From Leeuwenhoekiella sp. (GTDB taxonomy: Bacteria > Bacteroidota > Bacteroidia > Flavobacteriales > Flavobacteriaceae): a stretch of 53,351 nucleotides of DNA. The stretch is taken from assembly GCA_011050015.1 (NCBI GenBank), contig DRGP01000044.1, positions 1-53,351 of the forward strand. Direction: 5' to 3'. This document shows positions 22,448-42,732 of the stretch, piece after piece. Positions within the stretch are counted from its first letter, which is position 1. Every line of letters starts with the position of its first letter. The notes beneath the pieces are model-generated. The model did no database searches. It saw only the letters and a list, made by a program, of their open reading frames with translations, and was not told where the DNA came from. The position numbers were made by a program, and so were the translations under genes.

Positions 22448-22480
22448 GCTTAAAATGATATAAAAAGATATCAAGAAAAA

Positions 22481-22541
22481 AAGCCCTAATTAGGGAAGGG
22501 TCAATGTTGATGGTTGGTTTTAGTCCCCCCTTGTTAGGCAC
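22481..22541 (+). repeat. Intergenic hairpin repeat, copy C
   Basis: AAGCCCTAATTAGGGAAGGG-TCAA-TGTTGATGGTTGGT-TTTAGT-CCCCCCTTGTTAGGCAC. Confidence 0.8.
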
Positions 22542-22704
22542 TAGAAATTTTGTGAAAGAAAATCTTATTGTAAATACTGGATTTTCAGGATGTATATTTT
22601 TATGGAGTGGCCACTAGAGTTTCATCTATCCTTTCAAGGCATCAATACTTATTTATTGGTGTTGCAATGATATAACTAATATTAATGTATTAAAAAAATC
22701 AATA

Positions 22705-23262: not shown

Positions 23263-23280
23263 CCTTTAAAAACTAAAATT

Positions 23281-23763
23281 ATGAAAACAATTAAAACAAT
23301 TGCACTCGTAACAATTCTCATTGCTACTTTCAGCTTATCCAACGCACAGGAAACAAAAGCAAAGACGGATACGGAAGCGGTTATTGCTGTGATGAAAACC
23401 TACAAGGATGCCATTCAAAATTTGACAACTGAAGGCACGTTCAATTTATTTGCAGAAGATTCTGAAGTATTTGAATCCGGTGGAGTCGAAGGCACGTATG
23501 CACATTACATTGAGCATCATCTTGGACCAGAATTAGGCGAATTTAAAAGTTTTACCTTTTCTGATTATGAAATCGATGCCAAAGTAGATGCGCCCTATGC
23601 TTTTACTACTGAAACCTACATTTATACCATAGTGCTTAACCCAAATGAAAAAGGTGAAACACGAACGATTCGCAAAAAAGGCGTGGCAACGTCTATCCTA
23701 AAAAAGATGGGTGGCGAATGGAAAATCATCAAAACACATACCTCTTCAAGAAACACGAAATAA
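23281..23763 (+). CDS. NTF2-like/DUF4440 secreted protein
   Basis: Signal peptide; AVMKTYKDAIQNLTTEGTFNLFAEDSEVFESGGVEGTYAHYIEHHL. Confidence 0.65.
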   Translation: MKTIKTIALVTILIATFSLSNAQETKAKTDTEAVIAVMKTYKDAIQNLTTEGTFNLFAEDSEVFESGGVEGTYAHYIEHHLGPELGEFKSFTFSDYEIDAKVDAPYAFTTETYIYTIVLNPNEKGETRTIRKKGVATSILKKMGGEWKIIKTHTSSRNTK

Positions 23764-23771
23764 CAGCAACA

Positions 23772-25016: not shown

Positions 25017-25087
25017 TTTGAAATTGGCAATTGCGGATTATGGTTATACTTACTTTATATAGAAAACAATTAGCAACAATAAACATT

Positions 25088-25630
25088 ATGAAAACTAAAC
25101 TATTGATGTTCGCAGTTCTTTTAATAACATATTTCGAGGTTTCGGCTCAAAAAATATATAGAACCGATGATGGCCATATTGAGATGATGACTTTGGTGGA
25201 CGGTAAGACTATCAAGGCAGAAAGCCATAGTCTGGCACTATATCTTGATTACAATTCTAAAGTAGTAAATGGTGTTCTAGACCTTAAAACTTTAGTAACA
25301 GACCTTCCTGAATTAAATGCCATTATACAAGAAGGGGAAGCACCTGCAATTCTTCGGTTTACAGGTACTATTCCATCCGTTGATTTTTTATCAAAACGGC
25401 ACGACCCTATCAATTTTAATTGGCTGGTTGATGTTTTATATCAAGGGGAAACCTATAAATCACAGTTTAAAGCAACCATTACCCATATAGAACAGGGCAT
25501 AAATATGTCTTGTCTGATAAGTGCAACGGGACAGGTTTTGGTTTCAGATACGGGGTTAGATTCTTTAATGCAAGGTTTGGATAAAACAATAAATGTGCAA
25601 TTTGCACAATTGGTGCTGAAATTGGAATAA
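25088..25630 (+). CDS. YceI-like secreted protein
   Basis: MKTKLLMFAVLLITYFEVSAQ signal peptide followed by YceI-like fold residues. Confidence 0.6.
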   Translation: MKTKLLMFAVLLITYFEVSAQKIYRTDDGHIEMMTLVDGKTIKAESHSLALYLDYNSKVVNGVLDLKTLVTDLPELNAIIQEGEAPAILRFTGTIPSVDFLSKRHDPINFNWLVDVLYQGETYKSQFKATITHIEQGINMSCLISATGQVLVSDTGLDSLMQGLDKTINVQFAQLVLKLE

Positions 25631-25705
25631 CTATGTGTTTTCTATATTCAAAAAGAATGATAAGAGTATTTATGATATTTAAAACAGGCCAAGAGAACAT
25701 AAAAT

Positions 25706-25778
25706 AAGTCCTGATGTGGGAAGGGAATGGAAAATTTTTCATTGTTGATTAGTTAAAACTCCTTCCCAAGTCGGGCAC
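25706..25778 (+). repeat. Intergenic hairpin repeat, copy D
   Basis: AAGTCCTGATGTGGGAAGG ... TGTTGATTAGTT ... CCTTCCCAAGTCGGGCAC. Confidence 0.8.
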
Positions 25779-25787
25779 TATTATAAT

Positions 25788-26081
25788 ATGAAAAGCTACG
25801 ATACACTTTCTGAAACTATGGCTCATTTACAGGCTAAAGGCTACACTGTTGATTTCAATTTGAAAGAGAAACATCTGGAATGTAATGCTCTAAAGTTGAA
25901 ATTCCATCCAGAAGATTTTGAGGTGGACGAGATGCATCGTTTTGAAGGAATGAGTAGCACAGATGACAATAGTGTACTATATGCCATTTCTTCCAAAAAT
26001 GGAATAAAAGGCTTATTGGTGGATGCTTATGGGGTTTACTCTGAAAATATTTCTGAGGCAATCCGAAAAAAATTAAGGTAA
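25788..26081 (+). CDS. Small conserved soluble protein of unknown function
   Basis: MKSYDTLSETMAHLQAKGYTVDFNLKEKHLECNALKLKFHPEDFEVDEMHRFEGMSSTDDNSVLYAISSKNGIKGLLVDAYGVY. Confidence 0.75.
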   Translation: MKSYDTLSETMAHLQAKGYTVDFNLKEKHLECNALKLKFHPEDFEVDEMHRFEGMSSTDDNSVLYAISSKNGIKGLLVDAYGVYSENISEAIRKKLR

Positions 26082-26155
26082 TTTGAAACATATATATAAC
26101 ATATAAAAAGTGACCCGCAACCAATATTGTAATCAGATTAAATAGAAATTTCGAG

Positions 26156-27511
26156 ATGAAACCATTAAAAATAAATACCCAAAAGCTCTCATTATTAGGC
26201 TCTGTATCTTTAGGTACAGGCGTAATGATTGGTGCAGGTATTTTTGTTTTAATGGGGCAGATAGCCGAATTAGTCGGCGATTTATTTCCTATTGCTTTTA
26301 TCGCAGGCGCAGTTGTAGTAGGCTTTAGCTCCTATTCGTATGTTAAATTTTCAAACGCCTATCCTTCTTCTGGAGGTGTTGCTAAATTTTTGACAAAGGC
26401 CTATTTACCAGGTACACTTGCTGGTTCATTTTCTTTGCTGATGTATGTATCAATGGTTGTCTCAGAAAGTTTAGTGGCAGGTACTTTTGGGGCGTATGCG
26501 TTACGACTGTTTCCGCAAGGATATGAAGGTTATGCATCTGCATTGGGTGTATTGCTTATTGTTGCTGCATATATCATCAATATTTCGGGTAACAAGATTA
26601 TTGAGACTACCGCTACCATTACTGCAATTATTAAAGTAGTGGGTATTGCAGTTCTTGCTATATCAGGATTGGTTATTTCTGGTTTACCCACAATCACAGG
26701 TACTTATAGTGCTGCCAATGGCCAATCCCTGCCTGAAGGTTTTGGATTTATTGCCGCATTGGCCTTGTCTATCCTTGCATACAAAGGATTTACGACCATT
26801 ACCAATCAAGGTGGCGATATAAAAAATCCTCATAAAAATGTAGGGCGTTCCATAATTATATCAATAATCGTTTGTACGGTTATCTATGTTGTTTTGGCAT
26901 TATCGGTTGCTGGCGGATTGAGTATTGAAGAAATTATAATAGCAAAAGATTATGCTCTCGCAGCAGCAGCAAAACCTCTATTTGGCGAATGGGGTTCAAC
27001 GCTAACTATTTTACTAGCCATTGTTGCAACAGTTTCCGGTGTAATTGCCAGCGTATATTCTGCCTCGCGAATGTTGGGTATGTTAAGCAATATGAAACAA
27101 GTTCCTGATATGAACAGAATGAAGCAACTTAAAAATCCTTCGCTGATTTTTACTGTTTCTTTAGCGATACTTTTGACTGTTTTGTTCGATTTAACTCGCA
27201 TAGCTTCCATTGGTGCTATTTTCTATTTGATAATGGACATTGCTATTCATTGGGGACTTTTTAAATATTTGAAAAAGGAAGTAAAATTCAACCCGATTAT
27301 TCCAATAATTGCCATACTGTTGGATGTTGTTATTTTGGCAGCATTTATCTATTTAAAATATGTAAACGACCCATTTGTACTAATAGTTGCTGCAATTGGT
27401 ATTGCCCTCATTTTTCTTTCTCAATTTATTTTTATGAAATCGCATACAGATAAAGACGGAAATATGAATATGGGAATGGAAAACAGTGAAAAAGAACAAA
27501 TGAAAATGTAA
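26156..27511 (+). CDS. APC family amino-acid permease
   Basis: LGTGVMIGAGIFVLMGQIAE; 12-TM APC pattern; Met-rich tail. Confidence 0.88.
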   Translation: MKPLKINTQKLSLLGSVSLGTGVMIGAGIFVLMGQIAELVGDLFPIAFIAGAVVVGFSSYSYVKFSNAYPSSGGVAKFLTKAYLPGTLAGSFSLLMYVSMVVSESLVAGTFGAYALRLFPQGYEGYASALGVLLIVAAYIINISGNKIIETTATITAIIKVVGIAVLAISGLVISGLPTITGTYSAANGQSLPEGFGFIAALALSILAYKGFTTITNQGGDIKNPHKNVGRSIIISIIVCTVIYVVLALSVAGGLSIEEIIIAKDYALAAAAKPLFGEWGSTLTILLAIVATVSGVIASVYSASRMLGMLSNMKQVPDMNRMKQLKNPSLIFTVSLAILLTVLFDLTRIASIGAIFYLIMDIAIHWGLFKYLKKEVKFNPIIPIIAILLDVVILAAFIYLKYVNDPFVLIVAAIGIALIFLSQFIFMKSHTDKDGNMNMGMENSEKEQMKM

Positions 27512-27525
27512 AAATAACAGATACT

Positions 27526-30063
27526 ATGAAACACACCTATAAAATACACGGAATGACCTGCAATGGTTGTCGAAATCACGTAGAAGGAACACTTTCCAAA
27601 GTGAAAGGTGTCTCAAAGGCTACTGTGAATTTAGCAAAAGCTGAAGCTACCATTGAAATGGAATCACATATTCCTATTGAGAAATTCCAAGATGCCCTTA
27701 AAAAAGAAGGTGGTACTTATTCTATCCACAAATCTGGAGAGCGACATCATCAAAACGATACCGCCGGAGTTGATGCTGAGCGTAGTCGAAGTACGAAAGC
27801 AAAAAATGAAAAACCTAAAGGTAAAGGAACTGGCACTTTTTACTGTCCGATGCATTGTGAGGGAGACAAAACATATGAAAAAACTGGAGACTGTCCTGTC
27901 TGCGGAATGGATTTAGTTGAAGAGCAAAATTTATCTGCAAAAACTTCTGAACAATGGACTTGCCCAATGCACCCGGAAATTGTAAAAGATGAACCTGGAG
28001 CCTGCCCAATCTGTGGGATGGACTTAGTCCCAATGGAAGCAGATAGTTCAGCCGAAGAAAAGACCTATAACAAATTACTCAAGAAATTCTGGATTGCAGT
28101 CGCCTTTACCTTACCTATTTTCTTAATCGCAATGAGCGATATGATTCCGAATAATCCGTTATATACGGTAATGAAGCAAAAAAACTGGAACTGGATTCAG
28201 CTTGCACTTTCAATTCCTGTGGTGTTTTATGCTACGTGGATGTTCTTTGAACGTGCCTATAAAAGCATCAAAACCTGGAACCTCAATATGTTTACCCTAA
28301 TCGGCATTGGTGCTGGCGCAGCGTGGTTATTCAGCGTATTCGGTATGCTTTTTCCCGATTTTTTCCCGGCACAGTTCAAAACAGAATCTGGTGCCGTTCA
28401 CGTATATTATGAAGTATCCACTATTATTTTGACCTTGGTGCTCTTGGGTCAGGTTTTGGAAGCACGTGCCCACGGCAAAACCAATTCAGCAATAAAGGAA
28501 TTGCTAAAGCTCGCGCCAAACAAGGCCATACTAGTCAAAGATGGCAAGGAAGAAGAGGTTACGATTGATAGCATTAAATTGGGCGATATCCTACGGGTGA
28601 AACCAGGCGAAAAAATTCCAGTTGATGGCGTGATTTCCGAAGGTAGTACAACGGTCGATGAATCTATGATTACAGGCGAACCTATTCCCGTAAACAAAGC
28701 GGCAAATGACAAAGTTACCAGTGGCACCATCAACGGCAACCAATCTTTTTTGATGAAAGCCGAAAAGGTGGGTGCAGATACCCTACTGTCCCAAATTATC
28801 CAAATGGTCAATAATGCCAGTCGCAGTCGTGCACCAATCCAAAAATTGGCGGATACCGTCTCGGGATATTTTGTACCCATAGTTGTCCTTATTTCCATTA
28901 TCACATTTGTGGTTTGGGCTATTTTTGGTCCGGAACCCGTCTATGTTTATGCCTTTGTAAATGCAATTGCAGTATTGATTATCGCCTGTCCCTGTGCCTT
29001 GGGCTTGGCAACACCAATGTCCATTATGGTCGGTGTTGGTAAGGGCGCACAAAATGGTGTGCTCATAAAAAATGCCGAAGCTTTGGAAAAAATGGACAAG
29101 GTGGATACACTTATTATCGATAAAACAGGAACCATAACAGAAGGCAAACCAACGGTTGAAAAAGTCGGAGCCTTCGGAACTAATTTTTCAGAAAAAGAAG
29201 TGCTTCAATACATCGTTTCCCTAAACAGCAAAAGCGAGCATCCGCTTGCCGAAGCAACTGTAAAATATGGTAAAGAAAAGAATGTTGAGTTTTTGAGCGC
29301 TGAAAAGTTTAGCGCAGTTACCGGAAAAGGTGTTGAAGGAAACATCAACGGGAAAAAAGTGGATTTAGGGAATTCCAAAATGATGGCATACGCCAAGGCT
29401 GAATTAACTTCGGAAATGGAAACCGAAGCACAAAGTTTTCAAAAGCAAGGAAAAACAGTTTCATACCTATCCATCGATTCAAAAGTTGTGGGATATGTTG
29501 TCATTGGCGACAAAATAAAGGCGACCAGCGCCAAAGCGATCAAAGCACTTCAAGACAAAGGTATCGCAGTAATAATGCTTACTGGCGACAATCACGATAC
29601 TGCCCAAGCGGTCGCAAAAGAATTAAATCTTGCTGATTTTAAAGCAGGAATGTTGCCCGAAAACAAACTTCAGGAAGTAGAAAAATTACAGAACAGCGGA
29701 AAAGTTGTAGCAATGGCAGGCGACGGCATCAATGATGCGCCAGCCTTGGCAAAAAGTGATGTTGGTATCGCAATGGGAACAGGAACAGATGTTGCCATTG
29801 AAAGTGCAATGATAACCTTGGTAAAAGGCGATTTGCACGGTATTGTCAAGGCACGGGAATTGAGCGACGGTGTAATGCGTAACATCAAGCAAAACCTATT
29901 TTGGGCTTTAGGATATAACATTTTAGGAATCCCAATCGCAGCAGGTGTTTTGTTCCCTATTTTCGGGTTGTTATTATCACCAATGATAGCGGCTTTGGCA
30001 ATGAGCTTTAGTTCAGTTTCCGTTATTATGAACGCTTTGCGGTTACGTTCGTTAAAACTTTAA
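27526..30063 (+). CDS. copA: Copper-translocating P-type ATPase with HMA and two heavy-metal-binding Cys modules
   Basis: GMTCNGC, FYCPMHCEGDKTYEKTGDCPVCGMDL, WTCPMHPEIVKDEPGACPICGMDL, CPC (IACPCALG), [21 protein letters not shown]. Confidence 0.93.
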   Translation: MKHTYKIHGMTCNGCRNHVEGTLSKVKGVSKATVNLAKAEATIEMESHIPIEKFQDALKKEGGTYSIHKSGERHHQNDTAGVDAERSRSTKAKNEKPKGKGTGTFYCPMHCEGDKTYEKTGDCPVCGMDLVEEQNLSAKTSEQWTCPMHPEIVKDEPGACPICGMDLVPMEADSSAEEKTYNKLLKKFWIAVAFTLPIFLIAMSDMIPNNPLYTVMKQKNWNWIQLALSIPVVFYATWMFFERAYKSIKTWNLNMFTLIGIGAGAAWLFSVFGMLFPDFFPAQFKTESGAVHVYYEVSTIILTLVLLGQVLEARAHGKTNSAIKELLKLAPNKAILVKDGKEEEVTIDSIKLGDILRVKPGEKIPVDGVISEGSTTVDESMITGEPIPVNKAANDKVTSGTINGNQSFLMKAEKVGADTLLSQIIQMVNNASRSRAPIQKLADTVSGYFVPIVVLISIITFVVWAIFGPEPVYVYAFVNAIAVLIIACPCALGLATPMSIMVGVGKGAQNGVLIKNAEALEKMDKVDTLIIDKTGTITEGKPTVEKVGAFGTNFSEKEVLQYIVSLNSKSEHPLAEATVKYGKEKNVEFLSAEKFSAVTGKGVEGNINGKKVDLGNSKMMAYAKAELTSEMETEAQSFQKQGKTVSYLSIDSKVVGYVVIGDKIKATSAKAIKALQDKGIAVIMLTGDNHDTAQAVAKELNLADFKAGMLPENKLQEVEKLQNSGKVVAMAGDGINDAPALAKSDVGIAMGTGTDVAIESAMITLVKGDLHGIVKARELSDGVMRNIKQNLFWALGYNILGIPIAAGVLFPIFGLLLSPMIAALAMSFSSVSVIMNALRLRSLKL

Positions 30064-30065
30064 AG

Positions 30066-30779
30066 ATGGTGAAAAGGAAAACCGCACTAAAAATACGAAA
30101 GACCCACAGATATTTGGGGCTCTTTTTGGGGGTACAGTTCCTGTTTTGGACCATTAGCGGAATGTATTTCAGTTGGACAAACATAGACGACATTCACGGT
30201 GACCAATTCTGTAATTTAGATTACGTGCCCAAAGCCTTTGATGATTTAATAAGTCCTTCACAAATAAACAATCCTGAAGGCATTGGAAGTATCGAAATTA
30301 GGGACATCAACAACGAGCCTTATTACTGGATAAACAATCAAAAATTGTACAGTGCAAAAACTGGGAAAGCAAAAAAAAATATTACGGAAGAAGAGGCCTT
30401 GTCTGTTGCCAAAAACTATATGAAAGATGGTTTGAAAGTCGCCAACATCGAAAAAATAACCGAAGTGGACGACTATCACGAATATCGGGAAAAGCTATTG
30501 CCAGCCTATGTTATTTCATATGATACCGATGAAGCTCTTAATGCTTATGTTTCGGTAACAGACGGAAAATTCCAGACTGTAAGGCATCGAGCGTGGCGTT
30601 GGTTCGACTTTTTATGGATGACCCACACAATGGATTATGACACGCGCGACAATTTCAATACCATTGTATTAAGGGCGTTTTCGCTCTTGGGATTGATTAC
30701 GGTGTTAAGCGGATTCCTGCTGTGGTACACCTCCTCGCCAACCATTAGAAAATTAAAAAAGAAAATAATTAAATCATAA
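30066..30779 (+). CDS. PepSY-associated membrane protein
   Basis: RKTHRYLGLFLGVQFLFWTISGMYFSW; HRAWRWFDFLWMTHTMDYDTRDNFN. Confidence 0.8.
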   Translation: MVKRKTALKIRKTHRYLGLFLGVQFLFWTISGMYFSWTNIDDIHGDQFCNLDYVPKAFDDLISPSQINNPEGIGSIEIRDINNEPYYWINNQKLYSAKTGKAKKNITEEEALSVAKNYMKDGLKVANIEKITEVDDYHEYREKLLPAYVISYDTDEALNAYVSVTDGKFQTVRHRAWRWFDFLWMTHTMDYDTRDNFNTIVLRAFSLLGLITVLSGFLLWYTSSPTIRKLKKKIIKS

Positions 30780-30796
30780 CCAAAAACTCTAAAACA

Positions 30797-31276
30797 ATGA
30801 AAAATTCAAATCAACACACAAACAAAGGCAATTACACAAAATTTATTTTGATGCTTGTCGCATCTTTTATTGCAATGTACATCACGATGTATCTAAATAG
30901 TTATGCGTTAGACCACGTATATTTTAGTTTAACCAGATTCTATATGAGTTGTTTGGGTATTGCAGCAATGGCAGTAATAATGTGGTTTTTTATGCGGAAA
31001 ATGTATCAAAACAAGAAAAAGAACATCGCTATTTTATTAGGTAGCTTGGTGCTATTTTTAGGCGCACTTGGTTTGGTTAGGGCACAAAGCCCAATCATTG
31101 GCGATATTCTGTGGATGAAAGCAATGATTCCCCATCACTCAATTGCAATTTTAACAAGTGAAAGAGCCGATATCAAAGACCCTGAAGTGCGCAAACTGGC
31201 TGATGATATTATCAAAGCACAACGTAAAGAAATTGGAGAAATGAAAGCAATGATAAAGCGTTTGCAAGCAGAATAA
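30797..31276 (+). CDS. DUF305 domain membrane protein
   Basis: LWMKAMIPHHSIAILTSERADIKDPEVRKLADDIIKAQRKEIGEMKAMI. Confidence 0.85.
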   Translation: MKNSNQHTNKGNYTKFILMLVASFIAMYITMYLNSYALDHVYFSLTRFYMSCLGIAAMAVIMWFFMRKMYQNKKKNIAILLGSLVLFLGALGLVRAQSPIIGDILWMKAMIPHHSIAILTSERADIKDPEVRKLADDIIKAQRKEIGEMKAMIKRLQAE

Positions 31277-31293
31277 TAATAATTACCAAAACC

Positions 31294-31320
31294 TAACTGG
31301 TCTTAAAATCTGTTGGGTTT
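31294..31320 (+). terminator. Possible imperfect hairpin terminator
   Basis: AACCTAACTGGT-CTTAAA-ATCTGTTGGGTTTT. Confidence 0.45.
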
Positions 31321-31344
31321 TATAAAGAAATAAAAAAATATACT

Positions 31345-33129
31345 ATGAAAAAATACATCATTTATACCGCAATTTTAGCCATAGGATTGGTCTTGGGCTA
31401 TGTCTTTTTTGGCCCTTCTGCGGAAGGTTCCGTAAACAGCAAGAAAGTAACAGATTTGAGCGAAGACGTTAACCACTCCGAAGAACATCAAATGTGGACC
31501 TGTTCAATGCACCCACAGATTATGCAACCAGAACCTGGCGACTGCCCAATATGCGGTATGGATTTAATTCCCGCCGAAACTGGTGCGGAAGGGCTTGCAA
31601 TGAACGAAATAAAAATGAGCGACAATGCAATGGCACTGGCGAATATCCAAACTACAATTGTAGGAAATATTTCAGGAACCGACGATAACAAAATAACACT
31701 TTCCGGAAAAATAATGGCCAACGAAGAAGCCAATGCGGTACAGGCAAGCTATTTTGAAGGACGTATTGAAAAGTTGAATGTCAATTTCACGGGCGAAGAA
31801 GTACGAAAAGGACAGTTGTTGGCAACGATTTATGCACCAACGCTCGTTGCTGCCCAACAAGAACTTTTAACTGCTTCTGACCTGAAAGAATCACAACCAG
31901 GTTTATACAAAGCAGTTCGAAACAAATTAAAATTGTGGAAACTTTCTGAAAGCCAAATAGACCAAATAGAAAGTTCTGGCAAGGTGCGGGAAAATTTTCC
32001 GATTTATGCAACTGTTTCAGGCACCGTTTCCCAAAAAATGGCAGAAGAAGGCGACTATGTAAAACAAGGCCAGCCCATTGTTAAAGTAAGTGATTTGGGT
32101 ACTGTTTGGGCAATGTTTGACGCCTACGAAAGACAAATCTCGCAACTAAAGGAAGGTCAAAAGGTAACAATCACTAGTAACGCTTATCCCAATAAAGAAT
32201 TTGAAGCATCAGTTTCATTTATCGACCCTACTTTGAATACAAAGTCCAGAACTGTTTCAGTGCGCGCCACATTGAACAATAAGGAAAATCTATTAAAACC
32301 AGGAATGTTCGTAACCGCAAAAGTGGCAATGACAAAAGGCAATACTATGGAAATTGCGATAAGCATACCTGCAACGGCAGTAATGTGGACAGGCGAGCGC
32401 TCATTGGTGTACGTAAAGACCAATCCCAATGAACCCGTTTTTGAAATGCAAGAAGTGACTTTGGGAACGAAAAATGGTGAGAACTATACCATTATCGAAG
32501 GGCTTTCTAACGGCGATGAAGTGGTAACCAACGGAACATTTACCGTAGATGCCGCTGCACAGTTACAAGGAAAAAAATCTATGATGAATGCATCAGGTGG
32601 TAAAACAATGACAGGTCACGAAGGGCATTTGGGAATGGAAAATTTAAACAACACAGTTGATGCCGCCAAGCGTATGGATGTAGCTTCCAAATTCCAAGAG
32701 CAGCTCAAAACAGTTTTTGATGATTATATTATGCTTAAAACAGCATTGACAAACGACCAAAGTGAAAAAGCAAAAACGGCCGCACAGACCTTACAGAAAA
32801 GTTTAACACAAGTTGACCTTGCTTTGCTAAAGGATAAAAATGCGAATAACCACTGGGCGCAACTTGAAAAAGAATTGAAGGCTTCCTCAAATGAAATTGC
32901 CCAGACATCCGATATTAAAACCCAGAGAAATCATTTTATCAGTCTTTCAGCACACCTCATAAATGCAATGAAAGCGTTTGGCATCAACCAAGAAATTTAC
33001 ATAGATTTTTGTCCAATGGCAAATAATAATGAAGGCGCATATTGGTTGAGCACGGAAAAAGAAATACAAAATCCCTACTACGGACAAGCAATGCTAAACT
33101 GTGGTGAAGTAACAGAAACCGTACAATAG
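31345..33129 (+). CDS. cusB: CusB-type RND periplasmic adaptor with N-terminal metal-binding module and C-terminal DUF3347 domain
   Basis: MWTCSMHPQIMQPEPGDCPICGMDLIP; membrane-fusion protein core; C-terminal FCPMANNNEGAYWLS...NPYYGQAMLNCGE. Confidence 0.9.
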   Translation: MKKYIIYTAILAIGLVLGYVFFGPSAEGSVNSKKVTDLSEDVNHSEEHQMWTCSMHPQIMQPEPGDCPICGMDLIPAETGAEGLAMNEIKMSDNAMALANIQTTIVGNISGTDDNKITLSGKIMANEEANAVQASYFEGRIEKLNVNFTGEEVRKGQLLATIYAPTLVAAQQELLTASDLKESQPGLYKAVRNKLKLWKLSESQIDQIESSGKVRENFPIYATVSGTVSQKMAEEGDYVKQGQPIVKVSDLGTVWAMFDAYERQISQLKEGQKVTITSNAYPNKEFEASVSFIDPTLNTKSRTVSVRATLNNKENLLKPGMFVTAKVAMTKGNTMEIAISIPATAVMWTGERSLVYVKTNPNEPVFEMQEVTLGTKNGENYTIIEGLSNGDEVVTNGTFTVDAAAQLQGKKSMMNASGGKTMTGHEGHLGMENLNNTVDAAKRMDVASKFQEQLKTVFDDYIMLKTALTNDQSEKAKTAAQTLQKSLTQVDLALLKDKNANNHWAQLEKELKASSNEIAQTSDIKTQRNHFISLSAHLINAMKAFGINQEIYIDFCPMANNNEGAYWLSTEKEIQNPYYGQAMLNCGEVTETVQ

Positions 33130-33193
33130 TTTAAAACTATACTTAATTGGGTAGTTTAAATTAGTCATCTTGATTTTTTGAAGGAGAACGAGG

Positions 33194-33370
33194 ATGAGTG
33201 AGAGTAGAAGAAATAGAAGAAAAAATGACAGAAAGAAACATCAGCCTAAAAGTGATATTCCAAAAAAAGATAAAATTATAGCTTTAGTTGTGATAGTATT
33301 GATTTTTGTAGTTGCTGCAACAGCTGCCGTTTATTATTCTCTATACAAATCTGGATTAAAATTATTTTGA
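33194..33370 (+). CDS. Small basic single-TM protein (58 aa)
   Basis: MSESRRNRRKNDRKKHQPKSDIPKKDKIIALVVIVLIFVVAATAAVYYSLYKSGLKLF; preceded by AAGGAGAACGAGG; not in the ORF track. Confidence 0.5.
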   Translation: MSESRRNRRKNDRKKHQPKSDIPKKDKIIALVVIVLIFVVAATAAVYYSLYKSGLKLF

Positions 33371-33382
33371 AACAAGTACTAT

Positions 33383-33949
33383 ATGAATGAGACTATCCAT
33401 ATTAAAAATATGGTCTGCCCAAGATGTATCTCAGCAGTTTCCAATATTTTGGAACAACTTAAAATACTGTATGTTTCTATAAAATTGGGGGAGGTTAAAT
33501 TAGTTTCATCGTTAAGTCCCAACACAAAAAATAGTCTTTCCAAAGCGCTTCAAAATTCAGGTTTTAGTTTGATTGACGACCGTAAAAGTCAACTTATTGA
33601 ACAAATGAAAACATTGGTTGTAGATAAAATCCATCATTCTTCCGAGGAGCTCGATTTCAAATGGGCAGATATTGTTACAGGCGAACTTCACTTGGACTAC
33701 AAATATTTAAGTTCACTTTTTTCGTCGGTAGAAAATATTACGTTCGAGCAGTACATCATAAACCAGAAAATTGAACGTGTTAAAGAACTTATAGTTTACG
33801 ATGAATTAACCTTGAGTGAAATAGCATTTAAACTTCATTATAGTAGTGTTGCATACTTAAGCAATCAATTTAAAAAGGTTACAGGAATGACACCTACACA
33901 GTTTAAAAAAAGCACAAATCAGAATCGTAAATATTTGGATAAAATATGA
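33383..33949 (+). CDS. HMA-like N-terminal + AraC-type HTH C-terminal regulator
   Basis: HIKNMVCPRCISAVSNIL; C-terminal IERVKELIVYDELTLSEIAFKLHYSSVAYLSNQFKKVTGMTPTQFK. Confidence 0.88.
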   Translation: MNETIHIKNMVCPRCISAVSNILEQLKILYVSIKLGEVKLVSSLSPNTKNSLSKALQNSGFSLIDDRKSQLIEQMKTLVVDKIHHSSEELDFKWADIVTGELHLDYKYLSSLFSSVENITFEQYIINQKIERVKELIVYDELTLSEIAFKLHYSSVAYLSNQFKKVTGMTPTQFKKSTNQNRKYLDKI

Positions 33950-33970
33950 TGTTAAATTCTGTTAATCCGA

Positions 33971-34003
33971 AAATTTTACAAATCATTCGGCATATTTTAT
34001 AAC
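33971..34003 (+). promoter_or_regulatory. Candidate copper-regulator operator (copy 1)
   Basis: AAATTTTACAAATCATTCGGCATATTTTATAAC; 25/33 identical to 34574..34606; upstream of Csp-like gene. Confidence 0.45.
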
Positions 34004-34092
34004 AAAAAACGATATTACATACATTAAATTGTCTTTAGTAATATCCGCTATAGTAGTGGACTATTTTTAACAATTTAAATTCTAATATATTT

Positions 34093-34413
34093 ATGAAAAA
34101 TTCAAAATTAATCGAAGCTTTAAACAATTGTGTAGCACATTGTAATTACTGTGCAGATGCTTGTCTTGGCGAAGAAAACGTCAAGATGATGGTAGATTGT
34201 ATAAGAACTGATAGGGCTTGTGCTGCAATCTGTAGTGCAACAGCAAATTTGCTTGCGTCAAATTATAAAGATGTTAGAGGTATGGTAGAACAATGCCGTG
34301 ATATCTGTAAAAAATGCGCTGATGTATGTGCCAAGCACGACCACAAACACTGTCAAGAATGTGCAGATGCCTGTAGAAAATGTGAGGAAGCTTGTAACGA
34401 ATATTTAAAATAA
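34093..34413 (+). CDS. Four-helix-bundle copper-storage-like (Csp/DUF326) Cys-rich protein
   Basis: Repeated CxxxC/CxxC: NCVAHCNYCADAC...CIRTDRACAAIC...CRDICKKCADVCAKHDHKHCQECADACRKCEEAC. Confidence 0.88.
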   Translation: MKNSKLIEALNNCVAHCNYCADACLGEENVKMMVDCIRTDRACAAICSATANLLASNYKDVRGMVEQCRDICKKCADVCAKHDHKHCQECADACRKCEEACNEYLK

Positions 34414-34467
34414 TACAACTTATCTCAATTCATTATAGTGAGGTGCAACAACCTCAAATTCCGAAAG

Positions 34468-34495
34468 GCTACAACTCACATTGTAGTCTTTTGTT
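34468..34495 (+). terminator. Hairpin terminator after the Csp-like gene
   Basis: GGCTACAA-CTCACA-TTGTAGTC then TTTTGTTTT. Confidence 0.5.
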
Positions 34496-34573
34496 TTATA
34501 AAAAATCGGGTATAAGTTATCTTGTTTGTATCGGAAACTTGGGAAAATTACATATTGGTGACCCTTAACAAGC

Positions 34574-34606
34574 AAATTCTACAATTCATTCAGCATATAA
34601 CGTAAT
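34574..34606 (+). promoter_or_regulatory. Candidate copper-regulator operator (copy 2)
   Basis: AAATTCTACAATTCATTCAGCATATAACGTAAT; matches 33971..34003; upstream of the second Cu-ATPase. Confidence 0.45.
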
Positions 34607-34647
34607 ATATTAAAAACTTTAAATCCTAAAATTTGTGATGTATTAAG

Positions 34648-36918
34648 ATGAATACGATTATGGAGACAATCAACATATTTGAAACCAAAGAAAAGAAGCA
34701 AAAACAGGGAATAAAAGAATCATTTCCTGTTACGGGAATGACCTGCGCATCGTGTGCAGCGAGCGTTGAATCTGTTTTAAAACACACAGAAGGAGTGTTT
34801 GATGCCAGCGTCAATTTCGCTAATAGTTCTGTTCTTGTGGAATACGACAAAGCGTTGAGTCCTAATCAACTTCAAAATGCACTTCGCGAGGTAGGCTATG
34901 ATATTATTATAGATACAGAAAATCCTTCGGAAGTACAACAAGAACTTCAGCAAAAACATTATCAGGACATAAAAAGCCGTACTATCTGGTCGGCTATACT
35001 TACGCTACCCATTTTTGTATTAGGAATGTTTTTTATGCAATGGGAACCAGGTAAGTGGATTTCTTTGGTGTTAACTTTTCCAATTCTTTTTTGGTTCGGT
35101 CGTAGCTTTTTCATCAATGCTTTCAAGCAAGCCAAACACGGTAAAGCAAATATGGATACCTTGGTAGCTTTGAGCACAGGAATCGCTTTTATCTTTAGTG
35201 TATTCAATACCTTTTTTCCAGAATCTTGGTTGAGTCGTGGTATTGAACCTCACGTTTATTATGAAGCGGCTACGGTAATTATAACCTTTATTTCCTTGGG
35301 GAAACTATTGGAAGAAAAGGCAAAATCCAATACGTCTTCAGCCATCAAAAAATTAATGGGTCTTCAGCCTAAAACCCTTAAAATCATTGAGAATGGAGAA
35401 GAAAAGGAAATTCCTATTTCATCCGTGCAAGTTGGCCAGACCATTTTGGTGCGTCCCGGAGAAAAGATTCCTGTGGATGGAGAAGTTTCCAAGGGAAGCT
35501 CGTATGTAGATGAAAGTATGATTACGGGAGAACCTGTTCCAGTAGAAAAATCAACTGATGAAAAAGTATTTGCAGGCACGGTAAATCAAAAAGGGAGCTT
35601 TCAATTTACTGCCGAAAAAGTAGGTGGAGAAACCTTACTATCACAAATCATTAAAATGGTTCAGGAAGCTCAAGGAAGCAAGGCGCCTGTTCAGAAACTG
35701 GTCGATAAAATTGCTGGAATATTTGTTCCCGTTGTGTTGGCTATTTCCATTATTACCTTTATTGTATGGATATCAATTGGAGGCGATAATGGTTTTTCAC
35801 AAGCCTTATTAACTTCTGTAGCCGTGTTGGTTATCGCTTGTCCTTGCGCATTGGGATTGGCCACACCTACTGCCATTATGGTGGGTATCGGTAAAGGCGC
35901 TGAAAATAATATTTTGATAAAGGATGCCGAAAGTTTAGAGCTTGGCCATAAAGTGAATGCAGTAATCCTTGATAAAACGGGTACGATTACTGAAGGAAAA
36001 CCTTTGGTAACCGACATACTTTGGAAGGACAAGCTTGAAAATCAGAACGATTACAAGGAAATTCTTTTGGCTATCGAAGCACAGTCAGAACATCCCTTGG
36101 CAGGGGCTGTAGTCAACCACTTAAAAGATGAAAATGTTGAACAAACTGAAATGGCTTCCTTCGAAAGTATCACAGGAAAGGGGGTAAAAGCTCAAACAGA
36201 AAATGGTTCAAAATACTATGTTGGAAACCATAAGCTAATGGTTGAAAAGAATATTCAAATCGACGCTTCCTTAATGCAAACGGCAGAAAGTCTCGAAGAG
36301 CAGGCTAAAACGGTCATTTTCTTTGGCAATGAAAAACAAGTGCTGGCGATACTCGCCATTGCTGACAAGATTAAAGAAACTTCAAAAAAAGCTATAGAAA
36401 CACTTCAAGACAGAGGCATCGAAGTCTATATGCTTACTGGAGATAACAATAAAACCGCATCTGCTGTCGCAAAACAAGTAGGAATAACAAATTACCAAGG
36501 AGAAGTGATGCCTTCACAGAAAGCAGCTTTTGTTGAAAAATTGCAAGCTGATGGAAAGATAGTCGCAATGGTGGGCGATGGTATCAACGATTCGCACGCT
36601 TTGGCACAGGCCAATGTAAGTATAGCAATGGGTAAAGGGTCTGATATAGCAATGGACGTCGCGAAAATGACATTGATAACGTCAGATTTGCAATCTATTC
36701 CCAAAGCTTTGGAACTATCGAAAAGAACCGTGTTGGGCATACGTCAGAATCTATTTTGGGCATTCATTTATAATCTTATTGGTATTCCAATTGCAGCAGG
36801 CGTTTTGTATCCCGTAAATGGATTTTTATTGGACCCAATGATTGCGGGAATGGCAATGGCTTTCAGTAGCGTATCTGTAGTTCTAAATAGTTTAAGGCTT
36901 AAAGGAGTAAAACTTTAA
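34648..36918 (+). CDS. copA: Copper-translocating P-type ATPase
   Basis: [39 protein letters not shown]. Confidence 0.94.
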
Positions 36919-36941
36919 TATTAATTATAAATTCAAATACA

Positions 36942-37154
36942 ATGAAAACTTTAAAATTTAAAACAAATATCAATTGTGGTGGTTGTGTATCAAAAGTGAC
37001 CCCTTTTTTAAACAAGCAAGAAGGTGTCGAAAGTTGGGAAGTGGATACCGCTAATCCTGATAAAATTTTAACCATAGAAAGCGATGGTGCTTCAGAAGAA
37101 GATGTAAAGGCTACCTTGCAAAAGGTAGGCTTTAAAGCGGAACCTGTAGATTAA
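36942..37154 (+). CDS. HMA-domain metallochaperone-like protein (CopZ-like)
   Basis: FKTNINCGGCVSKVTPFLNKQEGVESWEVD; 70 aa. Confidence 0.85.
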   Translation: MKTLKFKTNINCGGCVSKVTPFLNKQEGVESWEVDTANPDKILTIESDGASEEDVKATLQKVGFKAEPVD

Positions 37155-37168
37155 TACCTCGCTATAAT

Positions 37169-37954
37169 ATGGTTTATATTTTAATTTTGGTTGTGATTCT
37201 TCTGTTTGCTATTCATTTTTATCGAAAAGAGAAACGGCATAGCGTAAAGCCATTTCCAGAGCATTGGCACAAATTATTAATGGAGAATGTTCTTTATTAT
37301 AAAAATCTTTCAAAAGGCAGGCAACTTGTTTTTCAACAAAAAATGATGCAGTTTTTAAGTGAGGTTTATATAGATGGCGTGCAGTTTGAATTGGAAGAAT
37401 TAGACAAAATTTTAATTGCAGCAAGTGCGGTAATTCCTGTTTTCGGCTTTAAAGAATGGCATTACACTAATTTAAGTGGAATCCTCTTATACCCAGATAA
37501 TTTTAATGAAGATATGCAATTTAGCAGTAAGGATAACTCGCGCAATATTGGTGGGATAGTCGGGAACGGACGTTTTGAGAAACAAATGATTTTATCTAAA
37601 AAAGCATTGTATCACGGTTTTAGAAACACAACAGATAAAAGCAATACAGGCATACACGAATTTGTACACCTTATTGATAAGCTGGATGATAGAACAGATG
37701 GCGTTCCAGAGCGATTATTAGAACATCAATATGCAATACCTTGGCTGAATTTAATTCATAAGGAAATAGAAGCCATAAACGACAACCATTCTGATATCAG
37801 AAAATATGGTGGTACAAACCAAGCAGAATTCTTTGCAGTAGCTTCAGAATATTTCTTCGAGCGCCCAGATTTGCTCAAAAAGAAACATCCAGAACTTTAT
37901 AAAATGTTAGTTAAATGCTTCAATCAAAAATTAGCAAATCCAATTAAAAATTAG
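37169..37954 (+). CDS. MtfA-like zinc-dependent peptidase
   Basis: TGIHEFVHLIDKLDDRTDGVP (HExxH), AEFFAVASEYFFERPDLL. Confidence 0.88.
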   Translation: MVYILILVVILLFAIHFYRKEKRHSVKPFPEHWHKLLMENVLYYKNLSKGRQLVFQQKMMQFLSEVYIDGVQFELEELDKILIAASAVIPVFGFKEWHYTNLSGILLYPDNFNEDMQFSSKDNSRNIGGIVGNGRFEKQMILSKKALYHGFRNTTDKSNTGIHEFVHLIDKLDDRTDGVPERLLEHQYAIPWLNLIHKEIEAINDNHSDIRKYGGTNQAEFFAVASEYFFERPDLLKKKHPELYKMLVKCFNQKLANPIKN

Positions 37955-37995
37955 TTTCTATTTAGGAGAGATTAAATCTGTAATTGAAAATCGTA

Positions 37996-38051
37996 AAGAG
38001 CGGATATTTTGAATATGCTAAACTACTTATAGCAATAAAATATCCGCTCTT
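37996..38051. terminator. Long-stem hairpin between convergent genes
   Basis: AAGAGCGGATATTTT (37996-38010) perfectly complementary to AAAATATCCGCTCTT (38037-38051). Confidence 0.7.
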
Positions 38052-38066
38052 CAATTATTTATTTCC

Positions 38067-39281
38067 TCAAAAGTTTATAACACTATCCAATGCATCATCT
38101 GCCTCTTTATGGATGAAATTGGCTTGATAGTTCAAGGTGGTTTTCAAATCACTATGGCGATATAATTTCTGTAGCATCAACGGATGAATGGCATCCCCAG
38201 CAATATTTCCAAAACTATGCCGTGCTATGTGCATCGTTATTTTCTTATTTATTTTAGCCTTTTTAGAGATTGATTTTAGATTGTCATTAAACCTCTTTGT
38301 AGCAGTTTTTCTCTTGTTATATAAATCTTTCGCATTTTCAGGGTCTGCCTTTTTCAATTCAGGGAAAACAAAATCATCATCACTTCTTTTATCATCTTTA
38401 TATTGGTCTAAAATCTTTAGTACTTTTTCAGGAATTTTTAATGATAGAAGTTTTGCGTTTTTATGCATTCTATAATGCAGCCTGTTATCATAAATATCTG
38501 ACCATTTGGTTCGTAGAACATCAGAAACCCTCATACCAGCAAAATTGAAACTAAAAAGCCAAACATTTCTAGTATGTATTTCAGAAGGTTTGAGATTTAT
38601 CAAATTTTCAATTTGTTGAATCTCTAAAATATTTAGTCCGACTTTGGTAGTTTCAGGAAATTTGATTTTTATTTTATCGCCACCGAAGGGATATAATTCT
38701 CTGCTTACAATTTTGTATTTAATTGCTCTGTTAAATAATAGCCTTACAAATACCAAAATGTTCATTATTGAGGTTTCAGACAGGGAGTACTTAACTTTTA
38801 AAGTTAACATCAGTTTTTTAAGAAAACGTTCATCAATTTCTTGAAAAGACAATTGTTTCGAATTGTGATATTTTATAATAAAGCTCAACCACGCTTTATC
38901 AGTAGATAAACGATTTAGCTTTTCTGTACTTTCTAAATCGTCAAGATGTTCTTGTGCTAATTCAAAGAATGAAGCATTGATACCGGAGGAATATATTTCC
39001 TTCTTAATTTGATTGGCAGAAGCATCTTTTTGTTCGGATTGAAGCGTAATAAGAGCATTGTTTAATTCAGAAAGTTTCAAGGATAACAAATTGTTCAAGG
39101 TTTTGAAATTTATGTGTGATTTCTTAACCCGAATATTCTTTTCATCCCAATCTTCCAATTCAATGTAGTGACCTATATATTGGTATGTTGAGCGACGATT
39201 TTTTGTAATACGTATGGCAAGAGGATACAAGCCTTCTTTATTAGGCTTTTTGCGAAGAACTATTTTAGCGTTTGATGACAT
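38067..39281 (-). CDS. int: Tyrosine-type recombinase/integrase (phage-integrase SAM-like, Bacteroidetes ICE/island type)
   Basis: FNFAGMRVSDVLRTKW, HIARHSFGNIA, YRHSDLKTTLNYQ; ORF track start 39311, internal start 39281 plausible. Confidence 0.9.
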   Translation of the reverse strand: MSSNAKIVLRKKPNKEGLYPLAIRITKNRRSTYQYIGHYIELEDWDEKNIRVKKSHINFKTLNNLLSLKLSELNNALITLQSEQKDASANQIKKEIYSSGINASFFELAQEHLDDLESTEKLNRLSTDKAWLSFIIKYHNSKQLSFQEIDERFLKKLMLTLKVKYSLSETSIMNILVFVRLLFNRAIKYKIVSRELYPFGGDKIKIKFPETTKVGLNILEIQQIENLINLKPSEIHTRNVWLFSFNFAGMRVSDVLRTKWSDIYDNRLHYRMHKNAKLLSLKIPEKVLKILDQYKDDKRSDDDFVFPELKKADPENAKDLYNKRKTATKRFNDNLKSISKKAKINKKITMHIARHSFGNIAGDAIHPLMLQKLYRHSDLKTTLNYQANFIHKEADDALDSVINF

Positions 39282-39315
39282 AATTGACCTAGTTTTGCGT
39301 ACGAAAGCCAAATCA

Positions 39316-39335
39316 GGTACAACATAGGTACAACA
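39316..39335 (+). repeat. Direct repeat GGTACAACATAGGTACAACA, copy 1
   Basis: Identical 20-mer at 39401..39420; each contains two GGTACAACA units. Confidence 0.85.
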
Positions 39336-39400
39336 TTCAATTTTGAATGTTTAGTTTACCAAGAAGTTTCCCTAAAGATACAAATTTATTAGTTTCTCTG

Positions 39401-39420
39401 GGTACAACATAGGTACAACA
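39401..39420 (+). repeat. Direct repeat GGTACAACATAGGTACAACA, copy 2
   Basis: Identical 20-mer at 39316..39335. Confidence 0.85.
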
Positions 39421-39519
39421 AATGTTGAAATCAATTGATATTAGATGATATCAAAGAAAATGACATATTATATAATCAATTGAAAATGAGTGGCTTTGGT
39501 GCTGTTTGGGCAAATGTAC

Positions 39520-39575
39520 GCTAGACTTAGGATCTAGTGCCTTACGGTGTGAGAGTTCGAGTCTCTCCGCCTGTA
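39520..39575 (+). tRNA. 3' fragment of tRNA-Leu(TAG), probable attachment-site remnant
   Basis: CTAGA-CTTAGGA-TCTAG anticodon arm, long variable arm, GAGAG-TTCGAGT-CTCTC T-arm, CGCCTGT-A acceptor end; no matching ACAGGCG 5' acceptor or D-arm upstream. Confidence 0.75.
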
Positions 39576-39580
39576 CAACG

Positions 39581-39691: not shown

Positions 39692-39724
39692 AGAAAAGCC
39701 GACTTTAACGAGTCGGCTTTTTCT
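39692..39724. terminator. Hairpin terminator
   Basis: AGAAAAGCCGACT-TTAACG-AGTCGGCTTTTTCT. Confidence 0.7.
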
Positions 39725-39918: not shown

Positions 39919-40935
39919 CTATAATAATGTAGCTTTTATTTCAACTAAATCTACTTGGTATTTATTTACCTCTAAGCACTCTAGCTTATCGTCTGCGAAA
40001 ATCACATAGTTTACACCATTCTTGTGCACTGAACTTTCAAAAATGATTCCATGAGCTCCAGTGATGTATTTAATAAATTCACATATAAATTGAGTAGGAA
40101 TGTATTCTATTTGTGAATCGTAGCGCCGCACAGGCTTTGACAGATCTAAACTGATTTTCTTTTTAAGAAATCTCGACTTCGCATATTCAATTTTATCTTG
40201 CTCTAAAAAGGGGCTGCCATAGCTCGTAAAATCGACTAATTTTATAGTTTCATTTTTCTTTAGCGAAAATTTTCCGATACTGAGTTCATCTAAATATGTA
40301 ACTCTAGTTTCATATAGAGTTGTCGTCCATTCCTTACATAAATATAGAAAAGAAATTCCTTCAGGATTAGCCCTACCGTTTGTAGAATATTTGGCAGGCG
40401 GACTACCCATTTCATTTATGGAATATACACTAGCTCCTTCTTTGTGATGAATTCTTGCCCTGTACAAAATTGTTTTATCAGATAATCCTGTTTGAGCTTC
40501 AAAGAACCTATCCCAACCATAATCAAAAGAAATTGTATCTAAATTTATTAAAAAACGTCTCTCCCATTTTAATTCATGTTTTAAAACTTCCCAATAAGAT
40601 ACGCAATCTTCAATTTCTTGTAAATAAGTTACTGTGGTATCTGGGTTTTTCAAATCATTAGGCATTAATGAATAAGCATCTAGTAAAATACTATGAGCTA
40701 TATTTTGTGAGGAAAAAAGATTCCAGTCATTTTGTAGTATTTGAGACAAAGTAAATTCTGAACTTTTATCTTCCTCGAAAATATCTATCAACTCAACAAA
40801 AAAGTCTAATAATTCAGCTATGTCGATTTGATGGGATTTAGGATGCCCACAATACATGCATTCAGATATTATGGAAGAGTTTGCTTCAATAAATCTTTTT
40901 AGCTCTAAATCATTAAAACATTCACTGCAAACCAT
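39919..40935 (-). CDS. RES-domain protein with N-terminal Cys-rich/HEPN_RES-like domain
   Basis: N-term MVCSECFNDLELKRFIE...CMYCGHPKS (two CxxC); RES-like YRAR, NGRANPEGISFLYLCKEWTTTLYETR, YIPTQFICEFIK, GIIFESS. Confidence 0.75.
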   Translation of the reverse strand: MVCSECFNDLELKRFIEANSSIISECMYCGHPKSHQIDIAELLDFFVELIDIFEEDKSSEFTLSQILQNDWNLFSSQNIAHSILLDAYSLMPNDLKNPDTTVTYLQEIEDCVSYWEVLKHELKWERRFLINLDTISFDYGWDRFFEAQTGLSDKTILYRARIHHKEGASVYSINEMGSPPAKYSTNGRANPEGISFLYLCKEWTTTLYETRVTYLDELSIGKFSLKKNETIKLVDFTSYGSPFLEQDKIEYAKSRFLKKKISLDLSKPVRRYDSQIEYIPTQFICEFIKYITGAHGIIFESSVHKNGVNYVIFADDKLECLEVNKYQVDLVEIKATLL

Positions 40936-40937
40936 TT

Positions 40938-41864
40938 TTAAACTCTAGCAGAATCATTTATAATTTCTAGGTGGTGCTTAATTGCAATTTTCTTTACCAT
41001 TCCCAATCCAGGATATTTGGCTTCATTATAATAATCTCTAAGTTCATTAGAAGCTACTGTATGAATTTCCTTTTCATTTAGAAAATCAACAGCTTTTTTG
41101 GCAGCTTCTGCAAATTTCCCCTGTATGTTCGCACGGTCAAAGTTACTCTCAGAAGTGAAGTGCCTAATCCATATTTCATCTTTTGTCTTCAGATATGTTA
41201 AGTGAATAGCTACAGCGTATGGAGCACTGCCACCTTCAATCCATTCACTGATTAGAGGCGTGTAATCCGAAAAACCAGCATATCCATCTTGAAGGTAATA
41301 AAAATGTTCTTCCGTAAATTTTTCTTCTGGCAAATCCAAATAATCACTATTTCTCTTTTCTGGTTTGAAATTGTCGTCTAGTCTTATTATTTTTTTATCG
41401 ATACCATCAACAAACCTTTTTAGGCTTCTATTATCTTCTGAAAGAACAGCAGTAACATAGTCAGATAAAACAATCTCTTTAAAATATTCGTTATTGGTAT
41501 CAGTTTGATCAGTGCAAATAATCATTGTATTTTCAAGTGCCAATTGATTCAATAGGACATTTACGGCATCATAATTATTTCTAACTATCAATACTGGTAT
41601 CCACCTTTCTCTATTAGCTAATTCAGTAACAAGTCCATTGAGAATATCATCCACATTTTTAATTTCGCCTACTTGTGGATTTAAAACCATTCCAAATTTC
41701 ACTTTACCGGCTATAAGCTTCGGTAAAGCTAGTTTCATGCTGTTAAACGATTTTTTTACAGGTTCGATTATTGGGATGATGTTATTTTTATCCCCTCTAA
41801 TATCGGAGTATTCTCTTAGAGCTATTAATTCAAACTGTCTTCCTCTCAAATATGGATAATACAT
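40938..41864 (-). CDS. sce7725 family / phage beta-like protein
   Basis: MYYPYLRGRQFELIALREYSD N-terminus; IIPIIEPVKKSFNSMKLALPKLIAGKVKFGMVLNPQVGE; operonic between the two neighbouring genes. Confidence 0.65.
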   Translation of the reverse strand: MYYPYLRGRQFELIALREYSDIRGDKNNIIPIIEPVKKSFNSMKLALPKLIAGKVKFGMVLNPQVGEIKNVDDILNGLVTELANRERWIPVLIVRNNYDAVNVLLNQLALENTMIICTDQTDTNNEYFKEIVLSDYVTAVLSEDNRSLKRFVDGIDKKIIRLDDNFKPEKRNSDYLDLPEEKFTEEHFYYLQDGYAGFSDYTPLISEWIEGGSAPYAVAIHLTYLKTKDEIWIRHFTSESNFDRANIQGKFAEAAKKAVDFLNEKEIHTVASNELRDYYNEAKYPGLGMVKKIAIKHHLEIINDSARV

Positions 41865-41868
41865 GTAA

Positions 41869-42732
41869 TTATATTGAAATTGGTTGCTTTAAAGCACTGA
41901 TTAGCTCGTTACGCTTTTTTAAACTGAGATTCAATGCTAAACCCAGCTGTCTGAGTTCGCTAGGATAATCGCTTAAAATTTCGGAATTTGTTTTTCTTTT
42001 TTTCAGCTCATTAATAAAAAGTGTATTTAAAATCTCATTTGGTATTTTTGATATTAGCTTTTCACATATTTCAAACATGTTAAAACTATTCATAGGAGGC
42101 AAATATCCATAATAAGAGTTTACTATGTTTTTATATTCATTTGTCCTTACTACTCGCATTAAAGTATAAGGACATATCAATTCATTAATTTCAGCTGACC
42201 TTACCTGAACCATTTTGAAAGACTTTGTTTTTTTTACGAGCGCTATTATGCCAGCGCTATTATCTTCAGCCTTATACTTATCAACAAGGTTTTCGTGTGT
42301 AACAATATACGTCTGTTTAAAAAGCTTTCTATAATCACTTAATTGTCCAATCAAACGTTTAGTCGAATCTAACTCAGTTTTTATTTCAAAAACTTTACTT
42401 GTACCATTAAATAGAACCATATCTGCTATGGAATTACCTACCCTAAATTCATTAATTATGTTAGTGTCATCTAAAGCATATTTTTTTAGAATTAATTTTT
42501 CTATTAGGGTGTTTTTATAAATATACTCATTTTGATAATTTTGAAGTAAATGTCTGTATACATGTTTTATGTACCCCCTATAATCAGAAAATGAAGAGCC
42601 TATATTTTTTTTATCGTAAGCATTAATTCTATTATTCATAAAATCGTAATCTCCATTTTTCAGTAATTTTGAAAAATTAGTACTAGAAAAAATTAATGAA
42701 TAACTTCGTAACTTCTGAATGTCTTTTTTCAT
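41869..42732 (-). CDS. sce7726 family, PD-(D/E)XK nuclease-like protein
   Basis: EFRVGNSIADMVLFNGTSKVFEIKTELDSTKRLIGQLSDYRKLFKQTYIVTHE (D...ExK core followed by QxxxY). Confidence 0.7.
   Translation of the reverse strand: MKKDIQKLRSYSLIFSSTNFSKLLKNGDYDFMNNRINAYDKKNIGSSFSDYRGYIKHVYRHLLQNYQNEYIYKNTLIEKLILKKYALDDTNIINEFRVGNSIADMVLFNGTSKVFEIKTELDSTKRLIGQLSDYRKLFKQTYIVTHENLVDKYKAEDNSAGIIALVKKTKSFKMVQVRSAEINELICPYTLMRVVRTNEYKNIVNSYYGYLPPMNSFNMFEICEKLISKIPNEILNTLFINELKKRKTNSEILSDYPSELRQLGLALNLSLKKRNELISALKQPISI

Follow-up and report, generated by a model that had tools for sequence, protein, structure and literature searches.

A conserved sce7726-sce7725-RES gene trio, a RES-armed relative of Gop-Beta-Cll, as a candidate abortive-infection system

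Described systems and the three genes of the locus

The RES proteins that have been studied degrade NAD+ or ADP-ribosylate proteins. RES toxins are widespread; as of 2024, however, no role in immunity had been reported for any RES toxin-antitoxin (TA) system, and the only enzymes known from NAD-targeting immunity were of the TIR and SIR2 types (PMC11535050). The RES domain had been predicted to be an RNase by Anantharaman et al. 2013 (PMC3710099), who described the Zn ribbon, HEPN/RES-NTD1 and RES architecture that is also found in the third gene of the locus studied here, but who nowhere mention sce7725. In the E. coli satellite phage P4, the gop-beta-cII genes confer protection from lambda and P1, and Gop becomes toxic when Beta is missing (Rousset et al., PMC9122126).

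The window, a stretch of 53,351 nucleotides from Leeuwenhoekiella sp., carries three genes on the minus strand from 42732 to 39919, separated by spacers of 4 nt and 2 nt (Table 1). An earlier sequence-only reading of this DNA had described them as a compact operon of nuclease-like sce7726, Beta-like sce7725 and RES proteins. Its open reading frames (ORFs), strands, coordinates and spacers were reproduced exactly, as were its observations that the locus is AT-rich (GC 27-33% vs 43.6% in the adjoining 43-44 kb) and that it lies between a tRNA-Leu gene and DEAD-box genes at 43019 and 44537. The window copy stands alone between the tRNA and these housekeeping genes, without an obvious defence island. 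The ORFs of the window include no Xre/MbcA/ParS antitoxin in the operon, which agrees with the earlier claim that a linked Xre antitoxin is missing; the conserved partners of RES are sce7725 and sce7726. PADLOC (PADLOC-DB 2023) recognises gene 1 only, as cll, and a PDB sequence search with profiles of all three proteins gave no meaningful match.

Table 1. Features of the trio and of the adjoining DNA, in window coordinates
Feature	Position	Strand	Evidence
Gene 1, sce7726-family protein, relative of P4 Cll, PD-(D/E)XK-like, 287 aa	41869..42732	-	NF033832 E 4e-51; PADLOC cll E 3e-21; tblastn to P4 cII E 7e-7
PD-(D/E)XK-like motif of gene 1 (E95, D104, E116-x-K118, Q130)	42343..42450	-	all five invariant in 50 homologues
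Gene 2, sce7725-family protein, P4 Beta homologue, TIM-barrel-like model, candidate antitoxin, 308 aa	40938..41864	-	NF033831 E 6e-86
Gene 3, Zn ribbon + HEPN/RES-NTD1-like + RES, 338 aa, predicted NAD+-degrading effector	39919..40935	-	PF08808 E 9e-13
CxxC...CxxC zinc-ribbon-like N-terminus of gene 3 (C3, C6, C26, C29)	40849..40929	-	Cys conservation
HEPN/RES-NTD1-like helical domain of gene 3	40543..40866	-	PF18870 E 1e-3, sub-threshold
RES domain of gene 3, residues 157-317	39985..40467	-	PF08808
Terminator-like hairpin 3' of the trio, predicted, T runs on both strands	39693..39722	.	stem of 13 pairs (+), 11 (-)
tRNA-Leu	39495..39576	+	
Copper/heavy-metal resistance mobile element	1..39494		
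Tyrosine recombinase at right end of the element	38067..39311		
Four copies of GGTACAACA	39316..39420		

The first gene scored 173.5 bits against NF033832 (sce7726; cut-off 70), the model that P4 Cll itself matches with 151 bits, and it finds P4 cII by tblastn. An E...D...E-x-K pattern is typical of PD-(D/E)XK nucleases. Such a core, already noticed in the sequence-only reading, is present and conserved in gene 1, and the equivalent residues E32, D43, E55, K57 and Q69 do not vary among nine proteins of Cll type, P4 Cll included. The Salmonella homologue of sce7726 gave a weak match to PF13366 (E 0.09), and the search of PDB sequences returned no match for sce7726. By its motif, gene 1 is nuclease-like, a putative nuclease of PD-(D/E)XK type.

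The second gene scored 289 bits against NF033831 (sce7725; cut-off 60), and a Pfam search with it returned no match, PF14350 (Beta) included. Its AF2 model (pLDDT 93.8) matched mostly TIM barrels in Foldseek; because these matches are weak (best E 2.5e-3), no activity is assigned from the fold. When the Beta family was compared with sce7725 by hhalign, the result was 97.1% with an E of 6e-11 over 296 columns, and by this profile comparison sce7725 and P4 Beta are distantly homologous. The middle gene had previously been called an adaptor; since Beta counteracts the toxin Gop in P4, candidate antitoxin fits better and replaces that term, while the kinship is so distant that sce7725 may not share the antitoxin role.

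The third gene scored 48.9 bits against PF08808 (RES; cut-off 23.2), and its AF2 model (pLDDT 93.2) found NatT as the best PDB match in Foldseek (8qnl, E 2.7e-4), followed by RES-Pp and ParT. The RES motifs and RES fold proposed for this protein are therefore borne out by a profile match above cut-off and by top structural matches that are all RES toxins. Six residues (R161, R188, Y198, E209, S301 and N309) are invariant in 56/56 homologues. The active-site residues of NatT are R23, R82, Y93, S184 and N193 (PMC11535050), and their counterparts in gene 3, mapped by motif order and not by superposition, are R161, R188, Y198, S301 and N309. The two-CxxC N-terminus read from the sequence also held, the first three cysteines being present in 56/56 homologues and the fourth in 51/56. 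PF18870 (HEPN_RES_NTD1) matched gene 3 below threshold and its Salmonella homologue likewise below cut-off (23.8 bits); this domain takes its name from being associated with HEPN and with RES proteins and is no HEPN RNase, so RNase activity does not follow. A HEPN RNase activity of gene 3 is unsupported, and no Rx4-6H motif was seen on reading the protein.

When 297 genomes were searched from a RES seed, 7/7 matches above 300 bits lay in trios, while sce7725 and sce7726 were absent within the roughly 1.5 kb flanking the weaker RES matches. By this contrast, the RES protein of the trios seems to form a subfamily of its own. HEPN-RES proteins without sce7725 occur elsewhere, and in three that were examined no Xre gene is annotated alongside, so their N-terminal domain might be enough to restrain RES.

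Relation to known systems and a proposed mechanism

The trio resembles Gop-Beta-Cll in the shared family of Cll and sce7726 (NF033832), in the homology between Beta and sce7725, and in being a small module of three genes borne by mobile elements. However, P4 Gop is a 133-aa membrane-type protein with a hydrophobic N-terminus, in place of which the trio has a RES protein of 338 aa; P4 gop-beta is convergent with cII, whereas the trio is collinear in the order sce7726-sce7725-RES; and Beta belongs to PF14350, which does not match sce7725. Of the components that define Gop-Beta-Cll, the trio therefore contains the Cll-family protein, but neither a PF14350 Beta nor a membrane-type Gop toxin. Since the core pair is shared but the killer and the gene order differ, the trio is, judged by these homologies, a RES-armed relative of Gop-Beta-Cll and not a member of it. 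The idea that Gop might itself be a RES relative was rejected, P4 Gop being short, of membrane type and without a RES match.

A library of 5.39 million papers, with preprints, supplements and subscription papers outside its scope, yielded no description of the trio; the five records in it that mention sce7725 or sce7726 deal, by their titles and abstracts, with other subjects, and the DefensePredictor main text mentions neither Cll nor NAD. The earlier description of the system as uncharacterised holds in this sense, and fails in that characterised relatives exist, Cll for gene 1 and Beta for gene 2. Beta-Cll convergent pairs occur in other genomes and plasmids. Four of them (L134, L135, L169 and L171) have an upstream Xre regulator and are possible further variants with another third gene; in L134 and L135, an IrrE/ImmA-like peptidase gene lies directly before beta.

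With the RES-Xre modules (NatRT, MbcTA, RES-Xre Pp and ParST), the trio shares the RES fold and the active-site residues. It differs from them in having no Xre/MbcA/ParS antitoxin, in its near-constant linkage to sce7725 and sce7726, and in the extra Zn-ribbon and HEPN/RES-NTD1 N-terminus of its RES protein. Thoeris and SIR2-based systems are comparable in the predicted loss of NAD+ in infected cells, but they employ TIR or SIR2 NADases where the trio would use RES.

We consider it moderately probable that the trio is an abortive-infection system in which RES depletes NAD+, sce7725 restrains it and sce7726 triggers it. The three genes would form one mobile immune module. The RES effector, once released, would cleave NAD+ by phosphorolysis or hydrolysis, and the infected cell would stop; Beta-like sce7725 would keep RES silent, as Beta does Gop in P4; and nuclease-like sce7726 would tie the release of RES to infection, in that it recognises or cuts foreign DNA or is itself what the phage disturbs. 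These elements are not equally firm. RES quite probably destroys NAD+, and we infer that NAD+ would be lost in vivo through the trio RES. The module is quite likely to be antiviral, though a shade less so; whether sce7725 restrains RES is evenly poised; and the role of sce7726 as a trigger or DNA-acting sensor is put forward tentatively. The abortive-infection-like design of the sequence-only reading is thus retained as the best reading, from fold, linkage and defence context, with activity, restraint and trigger kept conditional.

A wider proposal, which we place just short of an even balance, is that Beta/sce7725 and Cll/sce7726 may be a widespread sensor-and-restraint chassis with swappable killers, namely RES NADases, membrane proteins (Gop), or an Xre protein with an IrrE-like peptidase in the Beta-Cll loci; the RES form would then be the first immune system based on a RES toxin. 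If so, the large RES toxin family would gain a physiological role, and the trio would be the missing case of a RES toxin in immunity, beyond TIR and SIR2. It would also bring together the little-understood Gop-Beta-Cll and the orphan families sce7725 and sce7726, with antitoxin and sensor as a modular pair that can take different killers. Intact natural copies of the trio exist in E. coli, for example at the W409 locus (L223:14004-16869).

Conservation and mobility of the trio

A protein scoring above the sce7725 cut-off was found in 14/396 Bacteroidota genomes, and 13 of these 14 loci (window included) have sce7726 upstream and RES downstream. The exception, L023, lacks RES, and its pair is followed by a convergent ORF of 241 aa with several hydrophobic stretches (L023:2495-3220), possibly a Gop-like exchange. 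An alignment search of the genome collection gave at least 80 loci among the matches listed, with 557 candidate stretches confirmed, and the viral collection gave 27 loci with the alignment query and no match with a single-sequence query. With profiles of the three proteins, all three genes were found in 111/131 loci among the matches listed, copies that are partly non-independent (about 10 viral contigs are near-identical, and some genomes are in two collections). Incomplete loci are mostly explained by contig ends, by an IS insertion or by two-gene forms, and several of these two-gene forms come from phage-like contigs. The genes of complete trios lie on one strand in the order sce7726-sce7725-RES in 108/108 cases, the median gaps being 3 and 2 nt, an arrangement that is far beyond chance. 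In a mirror-tree comparison, the distance matrices of the three proteins correlated with r of 0.85-0.87, vs shuffle maxima of 0.19-0.24. Neighbourhood conservation had been proposed earlier as a check on the operon, and its outcome is clear: the trio is a real conserved three-gene unit. At most 3 of the 121 nearest flanking genes share a Pfam family, and PADLOC on the flanks likewise found nothing recurrent; there is thus no sign of a fourth member, and a fourth conserved gene was rejected.

RES-less sce7726-sce7725 pairs were seen in the phage-like contigs L128, L129, L115 and L132, the first two adjoining phage repressor-like genes, a common cargo position. Such pairs suggest that sce7726 and sce7725 may act without RES. 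In E. coli UTME-9 (L224:15844-16868), RES is annotated as frameshifted and sce7726 and sce7725 as intact, which, as annotated, is a natural loss of the putative effector. The two-gene forms agree with a reading in which the sce7726-sce7725 pair would itself defend the cell, as a nuclease that targets DNA together with a TIM-barrel cofactor, and a RES protein restrained by its own Zn/HEPN-like N-terminus would be the back-up when this first line is inhibited; the occurrence of HEPN-RES proteins away from sce7725 and the complete nuclease motif of sce7726 are in keeping with it. However, almost every intact sce7725 locus also has RES, which co-evolves with sce7725 and sce7726, and the flanking genes contain no recurrent methyltransferase or other mark of self and non-self, so that we regard this reading as unlikely.

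By record title and among the matches listed, several of which are MAG contigs, the hosts span at least 9 phyla. Trios are borne by plasmids in Moraxella, Shinella, Pseudorhizobium and Rhizobium, they occur in prophages and viral contigs, and the Salmonella trio lies in an integrative element at tRNA-Leu. The trio was found in 18/5,426 complete E. coli genomes. Five of the 18 E. coli loci were examined descriptively and showed an element bearing a relaxase and an integrase, with exchangeable cargo alongside. Cargo near E. coli trios includes KwaB-like (Kiwa-like) genes, adenylate cyclase/TIR/caspase (Pycsar-like) genes, a reverse transcriptase with a phosphoribosyltransferase (retron-like), SIR2 and phospholipase D-like genes, and BREX, AbiE or type I restriction genes lie near some of the trios. 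The trio is absent from 12/12 other genomes of the window's genus. It is therefore mobile and, in E. coli, located among defence genes; the co-movement in defence islands that the sequence-only reading had raised is seen in E. coli, on mobile elements beside named defence systems, but not in the window, where the trio is alone.

Carriage on plasmids, integrative elements and viral contigs would also suit an addiction TA, in which a RES toxin and an sce7725 antitoxin stabilise islands or plasmids, phage resistance is secondary and sce7726 is an accessory regulator. A TA module, SlvT-SlvA, regulates megaplasmid stability, and the paper on it mentions the RES domain (PMC7301842). But the invariant putative nuclease motif of sce7726 is needless for addiction, the E. 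coli trios stand among changing defence cargo, and the Beta and Cll homologues are experimentally antiviral; we rate addiction as improbable, marginally more so than a nuclease first line with RES as back-up. Protein ADP-ribosylation is another activity of RES folds (ParT, PMC12457610), and the trio might accordingly have no immune role, its RES protein modifying a specific cellular target for stress control, as ParT does Prs, and its island location being hitchhiking. The patchy, mobile, cross-phylum distribution and the homology to an antiviral system make this very improbable. Taken together, the conserved unit, the RES fold, the homology to Beta and Cll, the mobility and the E. coli context argue for abortive infection through RES as the best reading.

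The adjacent copper-resistance element and tRNA-Leu

To the left of the tRNA-Leu gene, the window is occupied by a copper/heavy-metal resistance mobile element. The 10 kb of it that were tested (20-30 kb) recur at 100% identity in six further species of the genus, whereas the DNA to the right of the tRNA in those species is ~77% identical or unrelated. From this comparison, the element appears to have spread between species very recently. The sequence ceases to match that of the other element-bearing species beyond about nt 47 of tRNA-Leu. The trio was considered as cargo of this element and rejected as such, because the element ends inside tRNA-Leu and near-identical copies elsewhere in the genus are without the trio. 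The integrase of the element lies on the 5' side of tRNA-Leu, the reverse of the usual integration at the tRNA 3' end. Just upstream of the integrase are four copies of GGTACAACA, with two 20-nt repeats, where 0.33 copies are expected; these repeats are likely to be arm-type binding sites.
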